Shown piece after piece: positions 54,720-55,427 of a stretch of DNA of 64,000 bases (position 1 is its first letter; every line of letters starts with the position of its first letter). The notes beneath the pieces were generated by a model. The model was not told where the DNA came from. It worked only from the letters and a program-made list of their open reading frames with translations, and did no database searches. The position numbers and the translations under genes were made by a program. Origin of the DNA: Desulfurococcaceae archaeon (GTDB taxonomy: Archaea; Thermoproteota; Thermoprotei_A; Sulfolobales; Desulfurococcaceae); assembly GCA_023269825.1 (NCBI GenBank), contig JAGDWI010000001.1, positions 802,492 to 866,491 on the forward strand. The letters are read 5' to 3'.

Positions 54720-55054
54720 TATTCAACCATATAAATAGATGCAATAAGCAAAATCCATATACTCAGAGATATAACTTAACTTGAAACAACATTAGAGTAC
54801 CTGCCTGGTTGTGAATTCTATTTGAAAACACTGACATAAAGCTGAATCAGATTCATATCTCAGGTAATTAACCATATCCTTGATCTTTTTTATTCTTTGC
54901 ATATCAATGAACAAAGGGTAGCCAGCAGTCTCGCACGAAAAAACACAGTAAAATAAAGGGAGATGGCGGGGCCCGCCTAGCGGCGGGACTAATAGCGGGG
55001 GGTGGATTTTCCTGGGGGATGCCCGCCCCAGGGGATTACTTTAATATAAATAGC

Positions 55055-55062
55055 CTTATAAG
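55055..55062 (-). promoter_or_regulatory. Candidate TATA box inside the T-loop interruption (3' part of initiator tRNA)
   Basis: Minus-strand GAAAAG-CTTATAAG has the same BRE-TATA form as the box before the 5' part. A start about 25 nt downstream, near 55034, would give a leader AATCCCCTGGGGCGGGC... that pairs with the trailer of the 5' part. Its presence is the main argument that the 3' part is transcribed on its own. Confidence 0.5.
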
Positions 55063-55157
55063 CTTTTCAACGCATTGGTGAGAGCTAATCACGCGTTGGA
55101 GTTGTTCATTAATACTAAGACGTTTTATCTGGGGAACTCGTTACGACTAAATCTCAG

Positions 55158-55178
55158 TTGTAAAAATAGAAGGAAGGA
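55158..55178 (-). terminator. T-rich terminator-like tract after the tRNA 5' part
   Basis: Immediately after the pairing trailer of the tRNA 5' part, the minus strand reads TTCCTTCTATTTTT. Archaeal terminators are T-rich tracts. Together with the internal TATA box at 55055, this suggests that transcription of the 5' part may stop before the 3' part. Not proven. Confidence 0.4.
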
Positions 55179-55375
55179 GCGGGCATCCCCCACTTTGAAC
55201 CACCGACCTCGGGTTCTCCGAGACGGTTTAAACCCGTTCTCTGTGACTCCGAGGGCCCGGCAGCCCTCTTATGAGCTTCGCGGGAGTAGCCTTTGCGGCG
55301 TGCTCCTCCCGCGGGCTACCAGGCTGCCCTACCCCGCTGTTTTGCCCCGCCGTTTTGTTTTTGTGTATTTTGTGG

Positions 55376-55383
55376 TTTATAAA
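55376..55383 (-). promoter_or_regulatory. TATA box of initiator tRNA 5' part
   Basis: On the minus strand GAAAACC-TTTATAAA fits BRE plus TATA. The box is 24-25 nt upstream of the GC-rich leader GGCGGGGC, which starts at about 55351, so transcription probably begins at that leader. Confidence 0.7.
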
Positions 55384-55427
55384 GGTTTTCGCGGTGGTGT
55401 TTCTACTCTTTATTTGCATTATTCTAT

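Follow-up and report, generated by a model that had tools for sequence, protein, structure and literature searches.

The interrupted initiator tRNA gene

The window analyzed in this study is a stretch of 64,000 nucleotides (nt) from a heat-loving Desulfurococcaceae archaeon (assembly GCA_023269825.1, contig JAGDWI010000001.1, positions 802,492 to 866,491), and our subject is its interrupted initiator tRNA gene, tRNA-iMet(CAT). The gene occupies 55338-54993 of the minus strand, and its 5' part (55338-55194) is separated from its 3' part (55006-54993) by 187 nt (55193-55007) located inside the T-loop between tRNA positions 59 and 60. A sequence-only reading of the window had proposed a T-loop split at 59/60 with ends at 55194 and 55006, 187 nt apart, and these coordinates were confirmed. 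The features of the locus are as follows.

55374-55387, minus strand: BRE (B recognition element)/TATA box of the 5' half, AACCTTTATAAACC, scoring 16.9 bits with the iMet promoter matrix described below
55339-55351, minus strand: leader GGCGGGGCAAAAC, whose first 8 nt pair with the trailer in the co-fold
55194-55338, minus strand: 5' half of tRNA-iMet (nt 1-59) with three short introns; its exons join to the tRNA of intronless congeners
about 55277-55307, minus strand: intron 30/31, inside the 5' half
about 55245-55268, minus strand: intron 37/38, ends inferred from relatives
about 55214-55242, minus strand: intron 39/40, ends inferred from relatives
55007-55193, minus strand: insert of 187 nt between tRNA positions 59 and 60, missing from genomes G007, G001, G002, G004, and G006
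55176-55192, minus strand: 5' strand of the joining helix, 17 pairs in the co-fold
55162-55178, minus strand: pyrimidine/T-rich tract TCCTTCCTTCTATTTTT following the 5' strand of the helix, where transcription of the 5' half may terminate
55053-55066, minus strand: internal BRE/TATA AAAGCTTATAAGGC, predicted promoter of the 3' half, 16.3 bits
55028-55034, minus strand: predicted transcription start of the 3' half, inferred from TATA spacing, as in Aeropyrum pernix
55013-55029, minus strand: 3' strand of the joining helix in the co-fold
54993-55006, minus strand: 3' half of tRNA-iMet, from T60, by exon match to congeners
54965-54973, minus strand: trailer GGCCCCGCC, which pairs with the leader in the co-fold

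When joined, the exons AGCGGGGTAGGGCAGCCTGGTAGCCCGCGGG, GCTCATAA, C, CCCGAGGTCGGTGGTTCAAA, and TCCACCCCCCGCTA give a tRNA of 74 nt that is identical at every base to the uninterrupted iMet genes of four congeners. Four interruptions are present in the gene: besides the 187-nt insert at 59/60, it has short introns at 30/31, 37/38, and 39/40, and comparison with relatives served to infer the ends of the latter two. The paper describing tRNAscan-SE 2.0 gives three as the maximum number of introns per archaeal tRNA gene (PMC8450103). The three short introns, the leader/trailer helix, and the related intron series in relatives were absent from the sequence-only reading.

The interrupted gene is the sole tRNA-iMet of the genome, a 3-contig assembly with an estimated completeness of 96.6%. 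A 5'-half pattern allowing up to two mismatches had one match genome-wide, as did a T-arm pattern, and the two further CAT tRNAs have non-initiator sequences. No second intact initiator gene was found in this genome-wide search, and the possibility raised earlier that the interrupted gene might be a relic was not supported. Because the gene is interrupted, ARAGORN and Rfam detected no tRNA at the iMet locus when run on the window. The genome encodes two paralogues of the splicing endonuclease EndA.

Structure of the 187-nt insert

The ends of the insert form a GC helix of 17 uninterrupted pairs, including one G.U pair, between 55192-55176 and 55029-55013; the sequence-only reading had recognized this helix but had given its length as 16 base pairs (bp). 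The bulge-helix-bulge (BHB) motif at 59/60 retained the T-stem and the AAG and AAT bulges previously described, whereas the central helix proposed as TTCA/GGAA consists of three Watson-Crick pairs (TTC/GAA) plus an A.G mismatch. The 3' boundary GGAAAAT is also present at other 59/60 introns, for example in G011, G020, and G028. When the predicted halves were co-folded, the T-stem, acceptor stem, leader/trailer helix, and joining helix all formed; the interaction energy was about -27 kcal/mol at 80 C and about -47 kcal/mol at 37 C. The T-rich tract reported after the first half was located at 55162-55178.

The longest frame in the insert encodes 46 amino acids, and tblastn with related endonucleases yielded no match; the encoded homing endonuclease by which a homing intron is recognized was not found in the window insert. 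Rfam identified no group I intron or known small RNA in the window or in the large related introns. An imperfect hairpin, CAACGCGTGA...TCACCAATGCGTTG, lies at about 55067-55098, directly upstream of the internal promoter. Leader/trailer complementarity of 7 nt or longer was observed at 48 of 54 iMet loci, which suggests that the precursor ends are paired beyond the acceptor stem.

Predicted internal promoter of the 3' half

Promoters were scored with a 14-nt BRE/TATA matrix trained on 62 non-redundant sequences from upstream of iMet 5' halves. The results revealed that the internal site received the top score among 174 insert positions and lies 23 nt before the 3' strand of the helix. Among the 127,974 positions of both strands of the 64-kb window, its score of 16.26 was reached only by the internal site and the promoter of the 5' half, in agreement with the earlier proposal that each half has its own BRE/TATA box (16.9 and 16.3 bits). 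All 27 scorable promoters of other tRNAs in the genome scored below the internal site, a comparison that favours iMet-like sites because the training set comprised iMet promoters only.

Large iMet introns in relatives

The genomes compared belong to the Desulfurococcales and their kin, and many of the relatives are metagenome assemblies. We scanned 34 large iMet introns of 151-1,628 nt at sites 30/31, 37/38, and 59/60, and 28 were retained after the removal of near-duplicates, the only step by which kinship among introns was handled. In 24 of the 28 introns, the highest-scoring promoter site on the sense strand was 18-28 nt upstream of the 3' strand of the helix, whereas a uniform distribution predicts 0.67 such introns (tail probability about 1e-38); with 200 column-permuted matrices, the count averaged 2.3 and never exceeded 11. 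When the 120 nt preceding the helix were dinucleotide-shuffled, 30 of the 34 introns gave p<0.05. The 30 nt after the 5' helix strand were 66% pyrimidine, against 47% elsewhere in the 28 introns. In 23S rRNA introns, of which few were examined and with rough boundaries, no promoter was found at that place except for weak scores in two short ones. Judged by this matrix, almost all iMet introns of more than about 150 nt in this group of archaea have the same predicted internal promoter, and this finding supports a general rule by which large iMet introns would bring their own promoter for the 3' half.

Comparison with known systems

The closest known system is the tRNA-Asp(GUC) gene of A. pernix, an adjacent-halves split gene whose halves were separate by northern blot (Chan, Cozen and Lowe 2011, PMC3218864). 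In genome G084, we found the published 5' half of this gene at its published coordinate, and the best site in its insert scored 13.4 bits and lies 22 nt before the GGGGCGG helix strand, by our count. Both genes have adjacent halves, in order and on the same strand, about 120-190 nt apart, and both exhibit a GC joining helix of 14-17 bp, an internal BRE/TATA 22-23 nt before the helix, and a BHB at the junction. They differ in the tRNA and in the site (37/38 in tRNA-Asp, 59/60 in the window iMet), and separate transcripts have been shown for the former and are predicted for the latter. Anatomically, the window gene matches the adjacent-halves split proven for A. pernix, with both the tRNA and the site being new.

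Other systems resemble the window gene in part. The permuted tRNA-iMet of Thermofilum pendens (PMC3218864) shares the tRNA and the break site 59/60, but its 3' part lies upstream of its 5' part under one promoter, whereas the window gene has the normal order and two promoters. A permuted gene was rejected for the window iMet on this ground, that is, the 5' part precedes the 3' part. The short noncanonical BHB introns at iMet 59/60 of relatives agree with the window in site, exon sequences, and boundary BHB; at 22-50 nt, however, they have no room for a promoter such as the window insert contains. The split tRNA-Lys(CUU) genes of Staphylothermus and Nanoarchaeum (PMC3218864) likewise have two halves with their own promoters and a GC joining helix, but their break is at 30/31, and kilobases of DNA separate the halves. 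Archaeal rRNA introns that contain LAGLIDADG genes resemble the window gene in their BHB boundaries and resemble the larger related iMet introns in having endonuclease genes; no promoter was found before the 3' exon in the small number of rRNA introns examined, and the window insert in turn has no detectable endonuclease gene.

A survey from 2011 reported archaeal tRNA introns of 11-129 nt, with the A. pernix tRNA-Asp as the single case longer than 100 nt besides introns containing C/D RNAs (PMC3218864), and a 2012 paper proposed the integration of mobile elements as a cause of tRNA disruption in Caldiarchaeum without the present mechanism (PMC3293823). In a literature search that covered few subscription journals, so that novelty is provisional, we found no earlier report that archaeal tRNA introns contain homing-endonuclease genes or that internal promoters are general among them.

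Evidence for a probable adjacent-halves split gene

The features by which split tRNA genes are recognized were found in the window gene: its two parts make one complete tRNA, the sole one of its kind; the 3' half has a predicted promoter at the expected distance (23 nt; 22 nt in the A. pernix control); and a GC-rich joining helix accompanies a BHB (17 bp; one central mismatch). On the basis of these features and of the A. pernix analogy, we consider it probable, at roughly 0.8, that the window iMet is an adjacent-halves split tRNA gene whose halves are separately transcribed and trans-spliced. The promoter geometry of the large iMet introns, the pyrimidine tract, the two EndA paralogues, and the opposite-strand split iMet genes of four relatives, with their matching joining helices, also speak for this explanation. 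The split proposed by the sequence-only reading is the best-supported explanation, with two corrections: an adjacent-halves split tRNA was already known in A. pernix tRNA-Asp (PMC3218864), and the window gene is no isolated case, since the same predicted promoter is present in nearly all large iMet introns.

We infer separate transcription, termination at the T tract, and trans-splicing in the following manner. The 5' half would be transcribed from its normal promoter to the T tract just past the 5' strand of the 17-bp GC helix, and transcription of the 3' half would start from the insert promoter at or just before the 3' strand of the helix. The two half RNAs would pair through the joining helix, the acceptor stem, and the leader/trailer helix; the BHB at 59/60 would be cut by the heteromeric splicing endonuclease and the products joined by tRNA ligase. 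The three short cis introns of the 5' half would also be removed, and some read-through RNA might be cis-spliced alongside trans-splicing.

Several points weigh against this explanation. A TATA match alone is no proof of promoter use, and the training set of the matrix includes the window gene's own 5' promoter, the internal site lying outside it. No strong promoter was found at the expected place in G116, in G119 (weak), or in the 59/60 intron of G011, G023, and G031, which has a TATA-like site at 36 nt instead; the 59/60 intron of G153, with its site at 31 nt, is another exception. The central BHB helix contains one A.G mismatch, and a weak spanning product was obtained by reverse-transcription PCR in A. 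pernix, so cis-splicing may coexist (PMC3218864).

Among the alternatives, a large cis-spliced T-loop intron survives best, although we judge it unlikely. One transcript would then span both parts, and the internal TATA would be unused or leftover, as might be expected of halves that are adjacent, in order, and on one strand, at a site where 19 relatives have short cis introns and with a helix and BHB equally suited to cis-splicing. Such an intron fits poorly with a promoter whose strength and position lie far beyond chance and are conserved over distant introns, with the T tract after the first half, and with the separate halves of the A. pernix analogue by northern blot. That the internal promoter serves another RNA or gene is very improbable: C/D RNAs do occur inside some archaeal tRNA introns, but from the predicted start to the trailer there is nothing except the 3' half, Rfam gave no match, and the site keeps its place with respect to the joining helix across many unrelated introns. 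An assembly error or a decayed relic is hardly credible: a further copy could in principle be missing from a 3-contig assembly estimated to be 96.6% complete, yet no other iMet was found in the genome, the exons are perfect, the neighbouring genes are conserved in congeners, and the insert ends are complementary over 17 bp.

Distribution of iMet interruptions

The iMet T-loop was interrupted in 31 of 229 genomes of the class. Of the 30 T-loop loci read, 19 have inserts of 22-50 nt, one (the window) has 187 nt, and ten have 712-801 nt; the ten long inserts hold a LAGLIDADG_3-type gene, which is intact in some and contains stop codons in others. Saccharibacteria matches of the T-arm pattern were set aside as other tRNAs. 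Large iMet introns also occur at 30/31 and 37/38, and over all three sites most introns of more than 700 nt contain a LAGLIDADG-type gene. Each endonuclease family keeps to one site and one orientation (sense at 37/38 and 59/60, antisense at 30/31), and the families are spread over several host families. A firm Pfam LAGLIDADG_3 assignment was obtained for the 59/60 family only; the 30/31 and 37/38 families display the LAGLIDGDG motif in sequences and alignments, and a sequence search of the PDB gave no match for the endonuclease families.

Introns of 0.7-1.5 kb with LAGLIDADG-type genes were observed at the three sites in loci L061, L062, L064, L066, L075, L161, L172, L174, L175, and L181. At L171 (G131), the large 37/38 interruption holds an opposite-strand archaeal ATPase gene (ATPase_2), not an endonuclease. 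The 30/31 intron of L062 (G011), L063 (G023), and L065 (G031) contains a 57-residue MazE/AbrB-like open reading frame just before the internal promoter of the antisense-endonuclease element. Two further iMet genes, L034 (G035:C214) and L046 (G010), have an intron-like insert in the 3' T-stem/acceptor region; about 170 nt downstream of the tRNA gene of G035 is a degenerate endonuclease gene of the 59/60 type.

In L067 (G054), L068 (G037), L176 (G167), and L177 (G169), the two parts of iMet are encoded on opposite strands, with helices of 11-14 bp that join them at 30/31, an arrangement that requires two transcripts. G037 and G169 additionally have a 59/60 insert. The Thermofilum-like loci L093, L095, and L099 are permuted iMet genes broken at 59/60, beyond that of T. 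pendens.

Origin of the insert

The neighbouring PGDH and aminoacyl-tRNA synthetase genes are conserved in congeners. By its PGDH gene (80% identity), G007 is the closest congener, and because its T-loop is uninterrupted at the same locus, the window insert is probably recent; loss in G007 is a possible alternative. Congener G005 has a 31-nt intron at 59/60 with a similar stem. The insert is probably a variant, lacking an endonuclease, within a family of splitting elements that carry promoters. It may descend from an element that had an endonuclease gene, of which no remnant was detectable, or from a short intron, like that of G005, that grew by gaining a promoter. The sequence-only reading had suggested that the gene may stand midway between a large intron and a split gene, which fits the comparative series.

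Homing of the large iMet introns is suggested by the site-specific endonuclease families and the patchy distribution. We lean, by a little, towards the view that these introns are a class of mobile elements that split tRNA genes. Each would supply the helix that joins the halves, a signal to end the 5' transcript, a promoter ready to drive the 3' half and, in most cases, a LAGLIDADG gene specific to its site. The host tRNA would be split in place on arrival; loss of the endonuclease would leave small split genes such as that of the window, and later inversion would produce the dispersed 30/31 splits and perhaps the permuted 59/60 genes.

Biological significance

How split tRNA genes came about, and whether they are ancient or derived, has long been asked. 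In the present comparison, a single tRNA within one archaeal class displays intact, short-intron, promoter-bearing large-intron (with or without an endonuclease), and opposite-strand split forms. The findings offer a testable rule, namely that iMet introns longer than about 150 nt have a promoter about 22 nt before the 3' half, and common gene finders can miss such genes, as ARAGORN and Rfam missed the window iMet. If this view is true, mobile splitting elements would provide the link that has been missing between introns and split tRNAs, and homing elements may interrupt an essential tRNA gene harmlessly by supplying the missing promoter.
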